39,237 bases of DNA, from contig JACVQK010000001.1 in NCBI GenBank assembly GCA_015661155.1, forward strand, positions 88,261-127,497. Direction: 5' to 3'. The notes below the pieces were generated by a model that saw only the letters and a list, made by a program, of their open reading frames with translations, made no database searches and was not told where the DNA came from. This DNA comes from Dehalococcoidia bacterium. Its GTDB lineage: Bacteria; Chloroflexota; Dehalococcoidia; Lucifugimonadales; UBA2985. The position numbers were made by a program, and so were the translations under genes. Within the stretch, counting starts at the first letter, position 1; every line of letters starts with the position of its first letter. Below are positions 1,174-34,105 of this stretch, piece after piece.

Positions 1174-1322
1174 GTCACGCTATTAGAGTAACCCATGAGG
1201 GTGCAGGGGGCGAAGCCCCCGCCGGGGGTCTGGGGGTGTCCCCCAGATTCAATCTCCACCCCCTTCCTGGCCAGGAAGGGGGCCAGGGGGATGGTCGAAA
1301 GAGTTCTTCAGCACCCTGCTAG
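1174..1322 (+). repeat. Family A repeat (A1 hairpin), thiS-thiO intergenic
   Basis: GGGGGCGAAGCCCCC, GGGGGTCTGGGGGTGTCCCCCAGATTCAA, CCCCCTTCCTGGCCAGGAAGGGGG, GGATGGTCGAAAGAGTTCTTCAGCACCCTGCTAG. Confidence 0.9.
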
Positions 1323-1333
1323 GAGGGAGCGTA

Positions 1334-2446
1334 GTGCCGTCTAACAACCACGTCATCATCATCGGAGGGGGAGTCATCGGTTGCTCCGTCGCCTACCACC
1401 TGGCGGGCGCTGGATTGAGGGTCACCGTGGTGGAGCGAGGGAGAGTGGGAGGTGGGGCCTCCGGCGTGGCTGCGGGAATGGTGGCGCCTCTCTCCGAAAC
1501 CCCGTCCCCGGGCCATCACCTCAAGCTGGCCCTCGAGAGTTGCGCCCTGCACCTGGAGCTTCTACCGCGGCTTCAGGAGGAGTCGGGAATCGATGTGGAG
1601 TACCTGCCCTCGGGTATCCTGCACCTGGCCTTCACCCCAGAGGACGAGGATAGGCTCAGGGCGCGCATGGAGTGGCAGGAGCCTCTGGGGATGGGGGTGC
1701 AGTGGCTCTCCTCCCAGGAGGCGCGCCTGGTGGAGCCTGCCCTGGGAGAGGAGGTCACGGGCGCTCTTCTCTCACCCCGGGAGGGGCATCTGAACAGTGG
1801 AAGGCTGGTGAGGGCCCTGGCCCAGGGGGCAGCCAGAAGGGGAGCCGCGATCCTCCAGGACACCGAGGTGTTGGGGCTTCTATCCCATCAGGGCCGCGTG
1901 ACGGGTGTGAAGCTCCCTTCGGGAGACCTGGAGGGCGAGTGGGTGGTGCTGGCCTCGGGAGCCTGGGCCGGCCTGTACGGCGGTTGGCTGGGGGTGGATG
2001 TTCCGGTGCATCCCGTGAGGGGCCAGATACTGGCGACCCGCGCTCTTCCATGCCCCATCTCCAGAATAGTGTGGCACGGATTGACTTACCTGCTTCCCAA
2101 GGCTGATGGCTCTGTCGTCTTGGGAACCACCTCGGAGGAGGCGGGCTTTCGAGACAGGGCCACCCTCCAGGGCATAGCCGGCATCCTCAGAAGGGCCATC
2201 AGGCTGGTGCCCGCGGTCGCCGAGGGGGAGCTGCACAGGGTGTGGGCCGGCCTGCGCCCGGCCTCCCCCGATGGCCTGCCGATTCTGGGCCCCGTGCCGG
2301 GTTGGGAGGGCATCCTCCTGGCGGTGGGCCACTTCAGAAGCGGCATCCTGCTCAGCGCCATCACAGGCAAGATGATTTGCGACTACATCGTCAGGGGCGA
2401 TACCCAGCCCCTTGCGCCCTCCAGCCTCTCGCGGTTCGCATCCTAG
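1334..2446 (+). CDS. thiO: Glycine oxidase ThiO (FAD-dependent)
   Basis: N-terminal GGGVIGCSVAYHLAGAGLRVTVVER FAD motif; RVWAGLRPASPDGLPILGPVPGWEGILLAVGHFRSGILLSAITGKMI C-terminus; sits in a thi cluster. Confidence 0.92.
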   Translation: MPSNNHVIIIGGGVIGCSVAYHLAGAGLRVTVVERGRVGGGASGVAAGMVAPLSETPSPGHHLKLALESCALHLELLPRLQEESGIDVEYLPSGILHLAFTPEDEDRLRARMEWQEPLGMGVQWLSSQEARLVEPALGEEVTGALLSPREGHLNSGRLVRALAQGAARRGAAILQDTEVLGLLSHQGRVTGVKLPSGDLEGEWVVLASGAWAGLYGGWLGVDVPVHPVRGQILATRALPCPISRIVWHGLTYLLPKADGSVVLGTTSEEAGFRDRATLQGIAGILRRAIRLVPAVAEGELHRVWAGLRPASPDGLPILGPVPGWEGILLAVGHFRSGILLSAITGKMICDYIVRGDTQPLAPSSLSRFAS

Positions 2447-2681
2447 GCAGGGCTCGCCCTGCACCCACACTGAAGCTGTCGCTGCCCTGGTTAGACCTGC
2501 TCTGCGATTCGTGAGGTGTGGGTCTGGGCCAAGCCCAGTCTGGGGGACACCCATGTCCCCCCTGCGGGAAAGGGGAGTACAGAGGGGCAACGCCCCTTTG
2601 ACGGGGGTCTGGGGGTGTCCCCCAGATACTCTATCCCCCCTCTCCTGCAGGAGAGTATGCCAGGGGGTGAGGTATACGCCC
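2444..2681. repeat. Composite repeat: family B1 then family A (A2 hairpin)
   Basis: B1: TAGGCAGGGCTCGCCCTGCACCCACACTGAAG...GTGGGTCTGGGCCAAGCCCAG. A2: CGGGGGTCTGGGGGTGTCCCCCAGATACTCTATCCCCCCTCTCCTGCAGGAGAG...GGTGAGGTATACGCCC. Confidence 0.88.
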
Positions 2682-3706: not shown

Positions 3707-3823
3707 AGGTGTTACCCCTGTCCTTTCTCTGGAATGCCCTTGAACTGATGTCCCAGTCTGGAGGTCAAGTCTCCTCCTTAACATGACCTGCTATGACCCA
3801 AAAGCTGTTCGGAAACGCCATCC

Positions 3824-3979
3824 TGGGGGAGTGCAGAGGGGGCAAAGCCCCCTCTGGCGGGGGTCTGGGGGTGTCCCCCAGATTCAATCTCCACCCCCTT
3901 CCTGGCCAGAGCCTGCCCTGAGCGGAGCCGAAGGGAAGGGGGTGGAGGATGGTCGAAAGGGTTTTTCCGCAGCCTGCTA
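3824..3979 (+). repeat. Family A repeat (A1 with nested insertion in hairpin 3)
   Basis: GGGGGAGTGCAGAGGGGGCAAAGCCCCCTCT...TCTGGGGGTGTCCCCCAGATTCAATCTCC...GATGGTCGAAAGGGTTTTTCCGCAGCCTGCTA. Confidence 0.9.
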
Positions 3980-5560: not shown

Positions 5561-6105
5561 ACCACTGGGTGGGGGACTTTCCCCTCTTCGATAGGGCTAT
5601 CGAGTGGGTGGTGAGCGACTACCTGGTGCCGGTGGTGTTCTCAGTGGTGCTGCTGGGGCTGTGGTTCGGCTGGAGAAGCCAGGCCATGAGGGAGCGGCAT
5701 CAGAGGGGGGTCATGCTGGCTGGCATTGGCGTGGGCACGGTGAGCGCGGCGGTCATGACCATGAACCTCTTCTACTTTCGCCTCCGTCCCTTTGCCACCC
5801 ACGATGTGGAGATGCTGTTCTATGTCCCCACGGACTCCTCTTTTCCCGCCAACCCCGTAGCGGTAACCTTCGCCATGGCTACTGGGGTATGGATGGCTAA
5901 CAGGAAAATGGGCACCGCCATGTACATCATCGCCTCCATTTATGGCTTCTCCAGGGTTTACGCCGGCGTGTTCTACCCCCTGGACGTGGTGGGAGGGGCC
6001 CTCATTGGCGTTGTGGCAACCTGCCTGGTGCACCTCGTCCTCAAGCGCATCGAGCCCCTACCCACCCTGTGCCTCAAGGTGGCGCGATTTCTCTGTATCG
6101 CCTGA
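5515..6105 (+). CDS. PAP2-superfamily phosphatase (membrane)
   Basis: From ATG 5515: FLWINHWVGDFPLFDRAIEWVVSDYLVPV, FYFRLRPF, SSFPANPVAVTFAMATGVW, SRVYAGVFYPLDVVGGALIG match the PAP2 K/RP, PSGH-like and SRxxxGxHxxxDV-like motif pattern (with atypical residues). ORF track extension to 5167 is spurious. Confidence 0.82.
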   Translation: MEAVSQADEKVFLWINHWVGDFPLFDRAIEWVVSDYLVPVVFSVVLLGLWFGWRSQAMRERHQRGVMLAGIGVGTVSAAVMTMNLFYFRLRPFATHDVEMLFYVPTDSSFPANPVAVTFAMATGVWMANRKMGTAMYIIASIYGFSRVYAGVFYPLDVVGGALIGVVATCLVHLVLKRIEPLPTLCLKVARFLCIA

Positions 6106-6251
6106 GGGGGTGTTGAAAGACCCTTTTCGACCATCCCCCTGTCCCCCTTCCTGGCCAGGAAGGGGGTGTAGATTGTATCTGGGGGACATCCCCAGACCCC
6201 CGCCAGAGGGGCTTAGCCCCTCTGGACTCTCCTCTTTCAACAGCCTGCTAA
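6106..6251 (-). repeat. Family A repeat (A1), reverse orientation
   Basis: GGGTGTTGAAAGACCCTTTTCGACCATCCCCCTG...CCTTCCTGGCCAGGAAGG...AGAGGGGCTTAGCCCCTCT...CTTTCAACAGCCTGCTAA. Confidence 0.9.
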
Positions 6252-10098: not shown

Positions 10099-10271
10099 CC
10101 CGGCAGGGCGTTGAAAAAGGGGGAGTGCAGAGGGGAGGGCTCCCATCCAGTGGATGGGAATCCCTTTGCCGTGGGTCTGGGCTTGGCCCAGACCCACACC
10201 TCACGAACCGTAGAACACGGTCAGACCAGGGCAGCGGCAGTTGAGTGTGGGTGCAGGGCTCGCCCTGCCTA
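10099..10271. repeat. Composite repeat: partial family A with alternative palindrome, then B1
   Basis: GCAGGGCGTTGAAAAAGGGGGAGTGCAGAGGGG...CCCATCCAGTGGATGGG...CTGGGCTTGGCCCAGACCCACACCTCACGAACCGTAGAACACGGTCAGACC...GTGTGGGTGCAGGGCTCGCCCTGCCTA. Confidence 0.87.
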
Positions 10272-13042: not shown

Positions 13043-13117
13043 ACACCTCACGAACCGTAGAACATGGTTAGACCAGTGCAGCAACAACTGAATGTGGGTG
13101 CAGGGCTCGCCCTGCTA
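13043..13117. repeat. Family B1 repeat, left-truncated
   Basis: ACACCTCACGAACCGTAGAACATGGTTAGACCAGTGCAGCAACAACTGAATGTGGGTGCAGGGCTCGCCCTGCTA. Confidence 0.87.
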
Positions 13118-14706: not shown

Positions 14707-14750
14707 GTCTGTTACCTCCTGTTTCCGATAGGCTACTCGAGTACCAGCCC

Positions 14751-14790
14751 TAGCGTGTCGCTGAAAAACCCGTCCTTCAGCAGCCTGCTA
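14751..14790. repeat. Minimal family A derivative (both ends, no core) between etfA and etfB
   Basis: TAGCGTGTCGCTGAAAAACCCGTCCTTCAGCAGCCTGCTA carries both element termini and folds as a hairpin. Confidence 0.6.
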
Positions 14791-15588
14791 GATTATCTTC
14801 AGCTCCCGTAGCTTGAGGGCCAGGTTCTCCCCCGCCTCAGCGGGGGTCTCCCCCTTCAGAACCTCGCATTGCCCGGCCTTCTCTTCCACGTACAGCCGCC
14901 GCACCTTGGTCAAGGCTCCTTTGGCCCCCACCGTGGAGGGGTCTAGCCCCAGGTCCTTGGCACTCCATATCGTGGGCTGTTTCCGCCCCGCGGCCATGAT
15001 ATCCCTCAGCTTGGGATATCGAGCCCTGCCCACCTCGTTGCCCGCGGTGACCAGGGCAGGCATCGGTGCCTCAACGGTCTCGACGGTATCCCCCACGGTG
15101 CGCTCTGCCCGTATCTTGCCGCTCACCGCCTCCAGCTTTCCCACAATGGTGATGCAGGGGATGCCCAGGGACTCCGCGACGTAGGATCCCACCTGTCCGT
15201 TGTCCCAGTCCCCCGCCTGTCTCCCGCACAGGATAAGGTCGTAGCTGCCTATCTTCTTGACAGCAGCGGCCAGGACCCGAGCGGTGGTGAAGGCATCTCC
15301 CCCCTCAAAGGCCGGGTCCTGGAGGAGGATCAGACTATCCGCTCCCATGGCCAGGGGCTTCTTGATCACGTTCATCACCGGGTCGTTGCACAAGCTTACC
15401 GCCGTCACCTCTCCCCCCAAGGCATCCTTCAGGCGAAGGGCCGCCTCCACCGCCAGCTCGTCCAGGAGGCTCACCGCGGGCGAAGAGCCCTGAGGTGGAG
15501 CCACCGTGTTGGTCCGGGTGTCAACTCTGAACTGAGTTGGCGGGATGTCGGGGTCCGGGATCTGTTTGATGAAGACCAGGCATTTCAT
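14788..15588 (-). CDS. etfB: Electron transfer flavoprotein beta subunit
   Basis: MKCLVFIKQIPDP, NPFD-like start, LCGRQAGDWDNGQVGSYVAESLGIPCIT, PALVTAGNEVGRARYPKLRDIMAAGRKQP. Confidence 0.95.
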   Translation of the reverse strand: MKCLVFIKQIPDPDIPPTQFRVDTRTNTVAPPQGSSPAVSLLDELAVEAALRLKDALGGEVTAVSLCNDPVMNVIKKPLAMGADSLILLQDPAFEGGDAFTTARVLAAAVKKIGSYDLILCGRQAGDWDNGQVGSYVAESLGIPCITIVGKLEAVSGKIRAERTVGDTVETVEAPMPALVTAGNEVGRARYPKLRDIMAAGRKQPTIWSAKDLGLDPSTVGAKGALTKVRRLYVEEKAGQCEVLKGETPAEAGENLALKLRELKII

Positions 15589-15662
15589 GCGCACCCCCTA
15601 AATAGCTCGGCTTCCTGTCCAGAAATCGTGACAAATTTACCACGCTCTTCCCATGGTGTCAA

Positions 15663-15740
15663 GGCAGGGCAAGCCCTGCAGGGAAAGGACGGCAGAGGGG
15701 CGCAGCCCCTCTGCACACCCCTTTTCTAGCACCCTGCTAA
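15663..15740. repeat. Partial composite repeat (B-type palindrome plus family A end)
   Basis: GGCAGGGCAAGCCCTGC...CAGAGGGGCGCAGCCCCTCTGCACACCCCTTTTCTAGCACCCTGCTAA. Confidence 0.75.
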
Positions 15741-18961: not shown

Positions 18962-19112
18962 TTAACAGGGTGCTGAAAAACCCTTTCGACCATCCCCCTG
19001 GCCCCCTTCCTGGCCAGGAAGGGGGGAGAATCTAAATCTGGGGGGACACCCCTAGACCCCCGTCAAAGGGGCTTCGCCCCTCTGCACTCCCCCTTTTTTA
19101 ACACCCTGTTAA
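18962..19112 (-). repeat. Full-length family A element with clear terminal inverted repeats (151 bp)
   Basis: Left TTAACAGGGTGCTGAAAAA; right TTTTTTAACACCCTGTTAA (reverse complement TTAACAGGGTGTTAAAAAA): 17 of 19 matched. Confidence 0.85.
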
Positions 19113-22766: not shown

Positions 22767-23010
22767 TCTCCTCAGGGTTCTTTGCAAAGAATCGGCTGGC
22801 CTGGGCGGGGCAAACCCCACCCCCAGCGGGAAGAAAATCCAGGATTGACAGTGCCCGTGGGCACTAAAAAGACGCCTCTCGGTCTGGCGTGTTACGGGCC
22901 GCACGGTGCGGCCCGCTTGAGTGGTGTTTCTTAGACCTTGCCACTATAACAGGGGCTTCTTTGAGGGGATGCAAGGGTCGCTGGGATGAGTTTTAGGGCA
23001 GTTTTCGGGG

Positions 23011-23176
23011 GCAGGGCGAGCCCTGCACCCACACTCAACTGTCGCTGCCCTGGTCTAACCATATTCTACGGTTCGTAAGGCGTGGGTCTGGGCTAAGCCC
23101 AGTCTGGGGGACACCCCCAGACCCCCGTCAGAGGGGCTGCGCCCCTCTGCACTCCCCCCTTTTCAGCAGCCTGCTA
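23011..23176. repeat. Composite repeat: B1 plus partial family A
   Basis: GCAGGGCGAGCCCTGCACCCACACTCAACTGTCGCTGCCC...GTGGGTCTGGGCTAAGCCCAGTCTGGGGGACACCCCCAGACCCCCGTCAGAGGGGCTGCGCCCCTCTGCACTCC...CAGCAGCCTGCTA. Confidence 0.87.
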
Positions 23177-23198
23177 TAATCTCTGATGAGGTGGGTTT

Positions 23199-25582: not shown

Positions 25583-26416
25583 ATGACTCAGACAAAGGCT
25601 CTTACACCGGAGCAGGTCAAACGGTATAGCCGGCACATCATCATGCCCCAGGTGGGAAGCCGGGGGCAGCGCAGGATCATGGAGGCCAGGGTCCTCATCA
25701 TAGGCGCGGGAGGCCTCGGCTCCCCGGTCGCCCTGTACCTGGCCCTGGCGGGGGTGGGCACCCTGGGGATCGTGGATTTCGACACGGTGGAGGTGAGCAA
25801 CCTGCAACGCCAGGTCCTCCACCACCTGCGTGACGTGGGGAAGCCCAAGGTCCTATCGGCCAAAGAGACCATTGCGGAGTACAATCGGGACGTGGAAGTG
25901 GTGCCCTACCAGTTCCCCCTAACCTCCGAGAACGCCATGGAGATCATCTCCCAGTACGACATCGTGGTCAACGGGGCGGACAACTTCGCTGCCAGGTATC
26001 TGATAAACGACGCCGCTTACCTCGCGGGAAAGCCCCTGGTGGATGGCAGCATCCTCCTGTTCGATGGCCAGGCCAGCGTGTTTCTCCCTGGGAAGGGGTG
26101 CTACCGATGCCTCTTTCCCTCTCCCCCTCCTCCTGGCTCGGTGCCAAGCTGTGCCGAGGCCGGGGTGTTGGGTGCCCTGCCGGGGCTGATCGGGAGCGTT
26201 CAGGCGGTGGAGACCATCAAGCTGATCCTGGGGATAGGGGAGACCCTTGCTGGACGCCTGCTCATCGTGGATACCCTCAGCATGGAGTTCCGCACCGTGA
26301 GACTGCGGCGCAATCCCAAGTGTCCTCTGTGCGGGGATAATCCCAGCATCAAGGAGCTTATAGACTACGAGGTCTTCTGTGGGGTCGCGGCCCCTGCCTC
26401 CGTTGGCGGGGAGTAG
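25583..26416 (+). CDS. MoeB/ThiF/HesA-family E1-like adenylyltransferase
   Basis: RYSRHIIMPQVGSRGQRRIMEARVLIIGAGGLGSPVALYLALAGVGTLGIVDFDTVEVSNLQRQ, CYRCLFPSPPPP, CPLCGDNPSIKELIDYEVFCG. Confidence 0.93.
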   Translation: MTQTKALTPEQVKRYSRHIIMPQVGSRGQRRIMEARVLIIGAGGLGSPVALYLALAGVGTLGIVDFDTVEVSNLQRQVLHHLRDVGKPKVLSAKETIAEYNRDVEVVPYQFPLTSENAMEIISQYDIVVNGADNFAARYLINDAAYLAGKPLVDGSILLFDGQASVFLPGKGCYRCLFPSPPPPGSVPSCAEAGVLGALPGLIGSVQAVETIKLILGIGETLAGRLLIVDTLSMEFRTVRLRRNPKCPLCGDNPSIKELIDYEVFCGVAAPASVGGE

Positions 26417-26590
26417 CAGGCTGCGGGGAAAAGGGGAGTGCAGAGGGGTGAAGCCCTCGCCGTCCTTCGGCTGAAGGATGGGGGTGTTCCCCAGACTGGG
26501 CTTGGCCCAGACCCACGCCTTACGAACCGTCCTTCGGCTGAAGGATGGTCAGACCAGCACAGCAGCAGTTGAGAGTGGGTGCAGGGGGAT
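26414..26590. repeat. Composite repeat: partial family A plus B1, each with the same nested 22 bp palindromic insert
   Basis: TAGCAGGCTGCGGGGAAAAGGGGAGTGCAGAGGGGTGAAG...CCGTCCTTCGGCTGAAGGATGG...CTGGGCTTGGCCCAGACCCACGCC...CCGTCCTTCGGCTGAAGGATGG...GTGGGTGCAGG. Confidence 0.83.
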
Positions 26591-26654
26591 GGTCGAAGGG
26601 GCTAGAGGGCATATCGGCTAGGAAAGCCGAAGCATACGCAGGAGGGCGAGGGAT

Positions 26655-28713: not shown

Positions 28714-28760
28714 CAGGGGACATCGCGCAGGTGGCGGATTAGCAGGGTGAGAAAAAGCCT
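28711..28760. repeat. Family A terminal remnants
   Basis: TAGCAGGGGACATCG and TTAGCAGGGTGAGAAAAAGCC resemble A-element ends. Confidence 0.45.
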
Positions 28761-28761
28761 T

Positions 28762-29110
28762 GTCATTCCGAACGCCGTTACACATATGTCATTCCGAGGA
28801 GCGGAGCGACGAGGAATCCAGGGCCTACCATACTTGGCAAAGGCACACGCCTTAAATGCTTCGCTGTCGCTCAGCATGACATTCCTCTCTCCGCTGCCGT
28901 GGCGTCCAGGGGCCTGCTCGTGCCCTTCGACAGGCTCAGGGCGAGCGGCCTGTTTTCCTGCCACCCTGTCATTCTGAGCGCCGTTACCCTTATGTCATTC
29001 CGAGTGAGTCCCGACCTGTCGGGACGACGAGGAATCCAGGACTTATGCCGTTAACAAGAATGGTAGGCCCTGGATTCCTCATCCCAATTGCATTGGGATT
29101 CGGAATGACA
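28762..29110. repeat. Cluster of GTCATTCCGA...GAGGAATCCAGG repeat units in direct and inverted orientation
   Basis: GTCATTCCGA at ~28762, 28788 and 28993; inverted unit CCTGGATTCCTC...TCGGAATGAC at 29070-29109; CCCTTCGACAGGCTCAGGGC at ~28923. Confidence 0.8.
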
Positions 29111-29252
29111 TTCAACTATCTGTCACCCTGAATGGAGCAAAGGGTCTCGGATTCTTCGTTCGCCTCAGGCGAAGCCCGTGGCAATCTGGCTGCAGGGTGC
29201 CGATGTTGGCGTGGCGCAGCGAGGGGATGTCGTGCTGGCAGGGCCGGATGCG

Positions 29253-32281: not shown

Positions 32282-32294
32282 GCTGCCAAGTTGG

Positions 32295-32437
32295 GCTGAT
32301 GAAAAAGGGGGAGTGCAAGGGGGCGCAGCCCCTTTGCCGGGGGTTTGGGGGTGTCCCCCAGATTCAAATTCTCCCCCCTTCCTGGCCAGGAAGGGGGCTA
32401 GGGGGATGGTCGAAGGAGTTTTTCAGCACCCTGCTAA
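32295..32437 (+). repeat. Family A repeat (A1) in the recA leader
   Basis: GCTGATGAAAAAGGGGGAGTGCAAGGGGGCGCAGCCCCTTTGCCGGGGGTTTGGGGGTGTCCCCCAGATTCAAATTCTCCCCCCTTCCTGGCCAGGAAGGGGGCTAGGGGGATGGTCGAAGGAGTTTTTCAGCACCCTGCTAA. Confidence 0.9.
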
Positions 32438-32464: not shown

Positions 32465-33484
32465 ATGACCACGGAGAAGGAGAAAGCCCTGGAGCTGGCC
32501 CTCGCGCAGATAGAGCGGCAGGTCGGCAAGGGGAGCATCATGAGGCTTGGGGAGGCCACCCAGAGGCTGGCGGTGGAGGTGATCTCCACGGGTTCCCTCT
32601 CCCTGGACATGGCCCTGGGGGTTGGGGGAGTGCCTCGGGGAAGGGTCACGGAGATATTTGGAGCCGAGTCCGCGGGCAAGTCGACCCTGGCCCACCACAT
32701 CATCGCCGAAGCCCAGAGGGCGGGAGGGACGGCGGTCTACATCGACGCCGAGAATGCCCTTGACCCTTCCTACGCTGCCAACCTGGGGGTCAACATGGAG
32801 GCCCTCTACGTCTCTCAGCCGGACACCGCCGAGCAGGCCCTGGAGATAACCGAGTACCTGGTCAGGAGCGGGGGCGTGGATGTGGTGGTCATAGACAGCG
32901 TGGCTGCCCTGGTGCCCAAGGCTGAGCTTGAGGGGGATATGGGGGACAGCCACATGGGGTTGCAGGCCCGATTGATGTCCCAGGCCCTGCGGAAGCTGGC
33001 GTCGGCTATCAACCGCTCCGGTACCGCGGTGATCTTCATAAACCAGCTTCGAGAGAAGATAGGGGTGGTCTTTGGCAACCCGGAGGTCACCCCTGGCGGG
33101 CGTGCCCTGAAGTTCTACAGCTCGGTGCGCATCGACCTGCGTCGGGTGGACTCCATCAAGCACGGCACCGAGGTCGTGGGCACACGAATCAGAGCCAGGG
33201 TGGTGAAGAACAAGGTGGCTCCTCCCTTCCGCACTGCCGAGTTCGATATCATGTTCAACCGGGGCATCAGCAAGGAGGGTGACATTCTGGACCTGGGTGC
33301 CGCCTGCGGCATCGTCAAGAAGTCGGGCGCTTTCTACTCCTACGGCGAGGTCCGCCTGGGCCAGGGGCGAGAGGCGGCCAAGGAGTACCTCGATCTTCAT
33401 CGAGACATGGCCGGAGAGATAGAGGGCAAGATACGGGGATCCCCAATGCCTCCGAAGTCTGTTGCCGTCGAAGAGCCAGACTAG
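32465..33484 (+). CDS. recA: Recombinase RecA
   Basis: [64 protein letters not shown]-type, [54 protein letters not shown]. Confidence 0.98.
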
Positions 33485-33490
33485 AGCAGC

Positions 33491-33621
33491 GTCAGGCTAT
33501 TAGGGTATCATTCGGGGGTGCAGGGGGCGAAGCCCCCGCCGGGGGTCTGGGGGTGTCCCCCAGATACTCTATATCCCCCCTCTCCTGCAGGAGAGGGGGA
33601 CAGGGGGTGAGGTATACGCCC
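33491..33621 (+). repeat. Family A repeat (A2 hairpin) between recA and recX
   Basis: GTCAGGCTATTAGGGTA left end shared with the 1174 copy; GGGGGCGAAGCCCCC; CCCCCAGATACTCTATATCCCCCCTCTCCTGCAGGAGAGGGGGACAGGGGGTGAGGTATACGCCC. Confidence 0.87.
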
Positions 33622-33631
33622 AGGGAGCTTC

Positions 33632-34105
33632 ATGGATGAAGAGAAGACCCTGGAGAAGGCGACCTCCCTTGCCCTGCGCTACATCTCCTACCGGCCCCGC
33701 AGCGAGGCCGAGGTGAGGAGCCGCCTCCGGCCCAAGCACCCCGGGCAGATAGTGGAGGCTGTGGTGCAGCGGCTCAAGGAGCAGGGCCTTCTGGACGACA
33801 GGGCCTTCGCCCACGCCTGGAGCCAGAGCAGGGCGAACTCCAGGCCCCGCAGCGCTGCGCTGGTACGAAGGGAGCTGCTGCAAAAGGGTGTGGCCCATGA
33901 GACGGCCCAGGCGGCGGCATCGACCCTGGACGACGAGGAGAGCGCCTACAGCGCTGGCCAGCGGGCGGCGAGAACCCTGGCGGGGGCTGACTACACCACC
34001 TTCCGACGCCGTGTGTGGGGCTATTTGCACCGCCGCGGCTTCAGCCAGGCCGTGGTGCGCCGCACTGTGCGCCGCCTGTGGGAGGAGCGGGGGATGGGAG
34101 GTTGA
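33632..34105 (+). CDS. recX: Regulatory protein RecX
   Basis: ALRYISYRPRSEAEVRSRL, VVQRLKEQGLLDDRAFAHAWSQSRANSRPRSAALVRRELLQKGV; directly downstream of recA. Confidence 0.92.
   Translation: MDEEKTLEKATSLALRYISYRPRSEAEVRSRLRPKHPGQIVEAVVQRLKEQGLLDDRAFAHAWSQSRANSRPRSAALVRRELLQKGVAHETAQAAASTLDDEESAYSAGQRAARTLAGADYTTFRRRVWGYLHRRGFSQAVVRRTVRRLWEERGMGG

Follow-up and report, generated by a model that had tools for sequence, protein, structure and literature searches.

BOX elements of Streptococcus suis carry the same boxB modules between two pairs of ends, boxA/boxC and boxE/boxF, and Correia elements have 26-bp inverted repeats (PMC3049150). TIMEs are Tn3-derived mosaic miniature elements, usually present as single copies, and those known as TIME-RES acquire foreign internal modules (PMC4133298). 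MITEs are little studied in uncultured bacteria, and our literature search found none described for the group considered here. We analysed a stretch of 39,237 nucleotides (the window) from a Dehalococcoidia bacterium, and comparison of its repeats with related genomes makes it very likely that the element at 18962-19112 is a MITE that an IS5-family DDE transposase, encoded elsewhere, mobilised in trans.

The repeat is short, non-coding and multi-copy, and has terminal inverted repeats; its ends match those of an insertion sequence (IS) with the same 4-bp target, and empty sites exist. Like the IS5 family and its MITEs, it duplicates a 4-bp YTAR target, and its 15-bp termini are those of the IS5 elements of its order. 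Two differences stand out: no cognate transposase was found in the host genome, where one is usual for an IS5-family MITE but not required, and the interior is unrelated to that of the IS and common to other element types. With BOX, compared by architecture only (PMC3049150), it shares modular interspersed repeats, hairpins and target duplications; the host is a different one, however, and here there are at least five end types, including one linked to a named IS family, and individual hairpins are swapped. Correia elements and NIMEs of Neisseria and enterobacterial BIMEs are likewise high-copy, short intergenic repeats of composite structure, but the ends here, in contrast to those of Correia elements, are IS5-type 15-bp repeats with YTAR. 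TIMEs are similar in being miniature elements with acquired internal modules and differ in their Tn3 ends and usual single-copy state, whereas here hundreds of copies occur and one core is common to several end types. The MITE is ordinary in kind; what is unusual is the number of ends using one core, for which the BOX of S. suis is a partial precedent.

The element and its copies in the host genome

The initial annotation had described an element with inverted ends of 19 bp and three internal hairpins, exactly as we find it: the ends are TTAACAGGGTGCTGAAAAA ... TTTTTTAACACCCTGTTAA, with two mismatches, and hairpins H1, H2 and H3 are present. The element proper is 18966-19108 (143 bp, CAGG...CCTG), with inverted repeats of 15 bp that differ at two positions, and the TTAA outside each end is the target duplication and is excluded from the inverted repeat. 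Its features are as follows.

18962..18965, plus strand: left copy of the target duplication, TTAA (YTAR class)
18966..19108, plus strand: the MITE proper, CAGG...CCTG, 143 bp, without an ORF
18966..18980, plus strand: left terminal inverted repeat CAGGGTGCTGAAAAA, identical to the end of the IS5-family IS
19002..19025, no strand: hairpin H1, a perfect 24-nt palindrome CCCCCTTCCTGGCCAGGAAGGGGG, the best conserved part
about 19037..19056, no strand: hairpin H2 TCTGGGGGGACACCCCTAGA, consensus TCTGGGGG ACA CCCCCAGA
19064..19084, no strand: hairpin H3 CAAAGGGGCTTCGCCCCTCTG, with other palindromes in its place in some copies
19094..19108, minus strand: right terminal inverted repeat, read on the minus strand as CAGGGTGTTAAAAAA
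19109..19112, plus strand: right copy of the target duplication, TTAA

As a single strand, the 143-bp unit folds much more stably than dinucleotide shuffles of itself (z = -4.1 for the plus strand and -3.0 for the minus strand).

The host assembly (G000) comprises 1.81 Mb in 101 contigs and is 92.9% complete. A DNA search of it gave 337 first-look candidate places, and the 40 that were scored contained 78 matches at E<=1e-3; the repeat is not a product of chance. Statistics for this genome come from 702 kb of its 1812 kb (sampled stretches plus the window), where a profile search returned 203 matches, about 50 of them full-length, and a core-only profile (H2-H3) returned 124 copies, or one per 5.7 kb. 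The genome total would be about 320 core copies (roughly 300) if they are evenly spread. Among the 50 full copies the mean pairwise identity is 86%, the mean divergence from the consensus 8.6% and the identity to the best neighbour 97.9%. Given that the source transposase was not found in this genome and that the copies are about 9% diverged, the IS5-family MITE is probably old and inactive there.

With 11 copies in 39 kb, the window exceeds the sampled genome average, which bears out the high density originally noticed. The copy sites lie outside called genes or abut them, and a Pfam scan of the 40 window ORFs turned up no transposase, again as had been claimed. The original list of related copies needs more revision. 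The repeat is real, but among the listed places both IS5-type ends occur only at 18962 and 6106: the right end at 32295 is decayed, 1174 and 3824 are chimaeras, 33491 is without an IS5-type end, 15663 is a right-end fragment only, and at 2539, 10099, 23103 and 26414 a second hairpin module (B) forms part of a composite. Their extents, together with one further element, are:

1174..1322, minus strand: chimaera with an IS5-type left end and core and a right end of another type (CTAATAGCGTGACGTGACA)
2446..2681, no strand: composite in which module B is joined by a core copy in opposed orientation that lacks IS5-type ends
3800..3979, minus strand: chimaera with an IS5-type left end, a palindrome inserted in the H1 loop and a right end of another type (TTTCCGAACAGC)
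6106..6247, plus strand: the other full IS5-type copy, located where two genes converge; CTGA, its left flank, includes the stop codon of the gene whose end is at 6105
10099..10269, minus strand: composite of module B and the right end of an IS5-type element, with CCCATCCACTGGATGGG in place of H3
14750..14791, minus strand: 34-bp element that has nothing but the two terminal repeats, flanked by CTAG left and right and lying between two electron-transfer flavoprotein genes, of which the upstream one (14788-15594) has its stop codon inside one of the CTAGs
15690..15740, plus strand: right-end fragment only
23010..23177, plus strand: composite of module B and the right half of an IS5-type element
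26414..26602, minus strand: composite with module B, with the palindrome CCTTCAGCCGAAGG present twice
32292..32433, minus strand: full-length copy, right inverted repeat decayed
33490..33625, minus strand: core copy lacking IS5-type ends, situated between recA (32465-33484) and recX (33632-34105)

Module B also stands alone, as a hairpin repeat outside the MITE, at 13043, 21260, 24155 and 32096. Another repeat family (GTCATTCCGAG...GAGGAATCC, with palindromes CCCGACCTGTCGGG and CCCTTCGACAGGCTCAGGGC) occupies 28738-29150, directly after an IS5-type left end TTAGCAGGGTGAGAAAAAG; no matching right end was seen.

Insertion sites and an IS5-family partner

Element boundaries were examined in 97 copies from eight genomes (G000, G016, G017, G027, G039, G023, G032 and G004). 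YTAR is mostly found on both sides, just outside CAGG and CCTG, and the composition is much flatter farther out. The left and right 4-mers are identical in 32 of the 97 copies, compared to 18.3 expected when the pairing is shuffled (P=1.5e-4), and the excess is present in the other genomes alone (19 versus 10.8, P=4.5e-4) and in the host genome alone (13 versus 8.3, P=0.037); flanks of widths 2, 3, 5 and 6 gave no significant excess of identity in the 97 copies. The inverted-repeat boundary, by which the initial annotation had proposed that its reading be judged, is consistent across copies. The TA/TTAA-like ends that it had reported do exist, but they are actually a 4-bp YTAR target duplication (CTAG, CTAA, TTAG or TTAA), an IS5 signature, YTAR being the target motif reported for IS5 (PMC10359306).

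For ten G016 copies, empty-site sequences made by fusing the two flanks around a single target copy were compared with the congeneric genome G051, which has exact empty sites for three, collinear over 338-339 bp at 87-89% identity. At base level G051 has a single TTAG, CTAG or CTAG where G016 has the element, although the flanks at one of the three copies are an imperfect pair (TTAG/CTAG). The presence/absence polymorphism between relatives that had been named as a further test is therefore observed. At other G016/G051 sites the element is in both genomes or the G051 sequence is unrelated; the site at L279:11385-11525, a present/absent case of the latter kind, was left out of the count. A same-genus genome for the host itself was sought in the GTDB r220 contigs, where only distant relatives (<=53% protein identity) were found. 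A tree of copies clusters by genome (17 label changes versus 39.0 by shuffling); it resolves few forks, however, and genomes are mixed in some of the supported groups.

A transposase gene with matching inverted repeats, another item that the earlier reading had asked after, exists in relatives; in the host genome neither PF01609 nor the IS protein found a match. The termini of the MITE (CAGGGTGYTGAAAAA) match those of a 1.33-1.37 kb IS5-family IS in relatives of its taxonomic order, with loci in G007, G008, G101, G116, G133, G141, G151 and G189. A PF01609 search of 40 relatives yielded the loci in G007 and G008, with TAGCAGGSTGCGGAARAA-type repeats about 1.34-1.37 kb apart, and a search of 197 genomes of the order yielded long open relatives of the transposase in G101, G116, G062, G151, G189, G133 and G141. 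With 260 versus 140 bits, the G007 transposase exceeds the cut-off of the NCBIfam IS5 model (NF033581 transpos_IS5_4), and it contains PF05598 (DUF772) and PF01609 (DDE_Tnp_1) domains; intact IS5-family transposases of the order are 367-381 aa long and lie in elements with the same 15-bp termini. Ends of the CAGG[GC]TGCTGAAAAA type are found on IS copies of G101, G116, G151, G189 and others, and the G151 IS has TAGCAGGCTGCTGAAAAA perfect at both ends. Ten 1352-bp IS copies in G116 show that the element is CAGG...CCTG and that the outer four bases belong to the target (TTAG/TTAG, CTAG/CTAG, ATAA/ATAA). Perfect 4-bp repeats flank 7 of the 12 IS copies in G116 and G007, including ATAA/ATAA, and four more genomes (G151, G189, G141 and G133) have perfect CTAG or CTAA duplications of the IS. 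Two pairs of G116 copies (L142/L145 and L149/L150) are identical, opposite in orientation and have their target duplications swapped, as expected for large inversions by recombination between copies.

The similarity of MITE and IS ends spans only about 15-20 bp. No MITE match was obtained in the genomes where the IS is most abundant or its copies are cleanest (G007, G116 and G151), and IS and MITE occur together in a few genomes only, for example G062. Multi-copy IS contigs are often lost in MAG binning, and the absence of the transposase from the host genome is for this reason no proof of loss. Elements without a transposase are nevertheless more than a binning effect, as G036, a relative assembled in a single contig, has many weak element matches and no DDE_Tnp_1 transposase. 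The target of IS701 is also YTAR; as a source, IS701 was rejected, there being one DDE_5 transposase in the host genome and no matching inverted repeats around it. A small ORF adjoins this sole DDE_5 (IS701-like) gene (L080, G000:C12) and is Y1 (IS200/IS605) transposase-like by eye; neither is flanked by MITE ends. Hidden autonomous copies were also sought in the 702 kb as terminal repeats 0.3-4 kb apart, but nearly all such ends belong to MITE copies, so that the pairs look like neighbouring copies.

Within the order the repeat has a match in 44 of 250 genomes and 33 of 97 genera. In a sample of the phylum the core recurs, with identities reaching 86-87% (G442 and G516), in a small number of further families of the class, and beyond the class only single hairpins or short pieces match. 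As the cross-family identity equals the within-genome mean, these matches suggest horizontal spread or strong constraint, with binning errors being possible. The best protein matches of one window gene are in Dehalococcoidales and Dehalococcoidia MAGs. Phage and plasmid collections contained no match to the repeat; one contig filed as viral (L274, IMGVR_UViG_3300009373_000582) has one copy with the right end and H1 intact. Copies also occur at contig ends in related MAGs (e.g. G027 C28, C37 and C46) and for that reason probably limit assembly.

A hairpin core shared by several element types

The core with its three hairpins is modular and forms a cassette common to different kinds of element, a feature that the first reading had overlooked. 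We call it a shared cassette because the hairpin middle is also found inside other, unrelated transposon ends. At least 60 of the 124 core copies in the 702 kb have IS5-type termini at both ends and 78 have an IS5-type right end, the remainder having other ends or none recognised (the lax IS5-end pattern has a background of 6.8% per 95 bp). Matches that are not full-length are not random fragments. About 40 core copies carry an extra hairpin module; in some copies module B (roughly 105 bp, GGCAGGGCGAGCCCTGCACCCACACTC...GTGTGGGTCTGGGCCAAGCCCAG) lies between the left and right halves of the IS5-type element, and both IS5-type ends are kept in 18 of these.

Smaller sets of core copies in the host genome have four other terminal inverted repeats, and another genus has one further type. 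The four are CATGAANYYATCCYA, TAGARGCTGTTCGGAAA, GTGYCGCGTCA and CTATCTCAAAA, for which inward versus outward pairs number 10 versus 3, 2 versus 0, 1 versus 0 and 1 versus 0, respectively. Each of these non-IS5 shells has few copies (4 III/III, 2 V/V, 1 IV/IV and 1 VI/VI), including three shell III (CATGAANYYATCCYA) elements of exactly 159 bp. Inverted-repeat scores of individual non-IS5 copies are barely above control, and the case for the other shells consequently rests on recurrent motifs. The further type is that of G122 (genus g73), where GGCYTTGCCTCAAAA encloses the core, being found in 13 of 29 copies on each side against a background of 2.6%; the reversed pattern, used as a control, had 0 matches. 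Autonomous elements for the minor end types were absent among the fetched transposase loci and, by spacing of terminal repeats, in G122.

Chimaeras between end types occur at 1174 and 3824 in the window and at L063:1603, L062:5841, L056:3928, L075:8142 and other places. Single hairpins are exchanged as well: H3 may be TCCCGACAGGTCGGGA or CCCATCCACTGGATGGG instead of AGGGGCTTCGCCCCT, and CCTTCGGCTTCGCTCAGGGCAAGCTC-like sequence is present in some H1 loops. At one site common to G016 and G051 the orthologous copies differ in H3 by such a swap, and hairpin exchange thus seems to continue after insertion. We tentatively raise the possibility that the core is a parasite of transposons, a cassette that could pass, aided by its hairpins, between unrelated miniature-element shells and bacterial lineages. 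This reading predicts the same core in five or six shells, chimaeras, and cross-family identity equal to within-genome identity, and all of these are seen; if it is true, each new pair of ends would give the core a new transposase to exploit.

Conservation of the core and rival explanations

In 45 aligned copies the hairpins are better conserved than the linkers and H1 is almost invariant, as it nearly is across genomes. H2 has undergone a paired change from G-C to A-T in 7 of the 45, with no broken intermediate, and 95% of stem cells are paired, compared to 44-70% in slid controls. This pattern fits either constraint or arm-to-arm correction, which are indistinguishable here. With regard to location, which was scored with simple gene calls made in-house, 8 of 36 placed copies lie between convergent genes, showing no strong preference. 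A called stop codon falls inside a target copy in 12 of the 41 full copies on the sampled stretches, exceeding the 169 of 1094 free intergenic YTAR sites (15.4%) that have one (binomial P=0.018). Part of this preference for gene ends follows from target choice, since YTAR contains TAA and TAG.

One could argue from these data that the true unit is the structured core, maintained under selection for a function of its RNA or DNA fold (for example as a bidirectional terminator or an insulator at gene ends), and that transposon ends are its passing carriers. The conserved hairpins, the near-invariance of H1 and the paired change in H2 are in keeping with this explanation, as are the association of the core with several unrelated ends, its occurrence in other families of the class and the slight excess of insertions on stop codons. 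We nevertheless consider it unlikely. Neither a terminator signature, intrinsic or other, nor a promoter signature was found, and Rfam had no match in the window above its gathering score; three sites are empty without an obvious replacement, copies are about 9% diverged from one another, convergent pairs are few, and the paired change in H2 may reflect a single subfamily or the correction of one arm by the other.

Much less probable is an old, fixed repeat with no mobility of its own, spread for the most part by gene conversion or recombination. Such a history would account for mosaic copies, for chimaeric ends and for swapped cassettes at orthologous sites, but transposition is required to explain exact empty sites and the target duplications seen at unrelated loci; the empty sites refute the idea for IS5-type copies, evidence that does not extend to the minor end types. 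A REP/BIME-like family moved by a RAYT (Y1) transposase, with palindromic units of 20-40 bp and no target duplication, would share the short palindromes, high copy number and intergenic location but can practically be dismissed, as a discrete 143-bp unit with terminal inverted repeats matching an IS5 DDE element, a 4-bp YTAR duplication and exact empty sites bears the hallmarks of a DDE transposon. Of the two possibilities in the initial annotation, a non-autonomous transposable element is upheld by the boundary, the empty sites and the IS with matching ends, and the REP-like alternative is not needed.

Our working model is therefore that of an IS5-family MITE. The transposase would bind the 15-bp termini common to MITE and IS, cleave at CAGG/CCTG and join these ends to a staggered 4-bp cut at YTAR, a target choice that would allow copies to insert at the stop codons (TAA/TAG) of genes, where harm may be least. 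It would later have been lost from the lineage of the window (or be missing from the assembly), following a burst whose copies are now about 9% diverged from the consensus. The interior would be a modular hairpin cassette of H1, H2 and H3, sometimes with module B between H1 and H2, that recombination or gene conversion in the shared core sequence may have transferred from one element type to another, and its hairpins may be structurally constrained or continually corrected.

The case gives a complete chain from MITE to IS to target to empty site in an uncultured lineage. With one cassette in several terminal types, a change of transposase partner by non-autonomous elements becomes testable, and the shared core makes the exchange of hairpin cassettes by recombination testable likewise.
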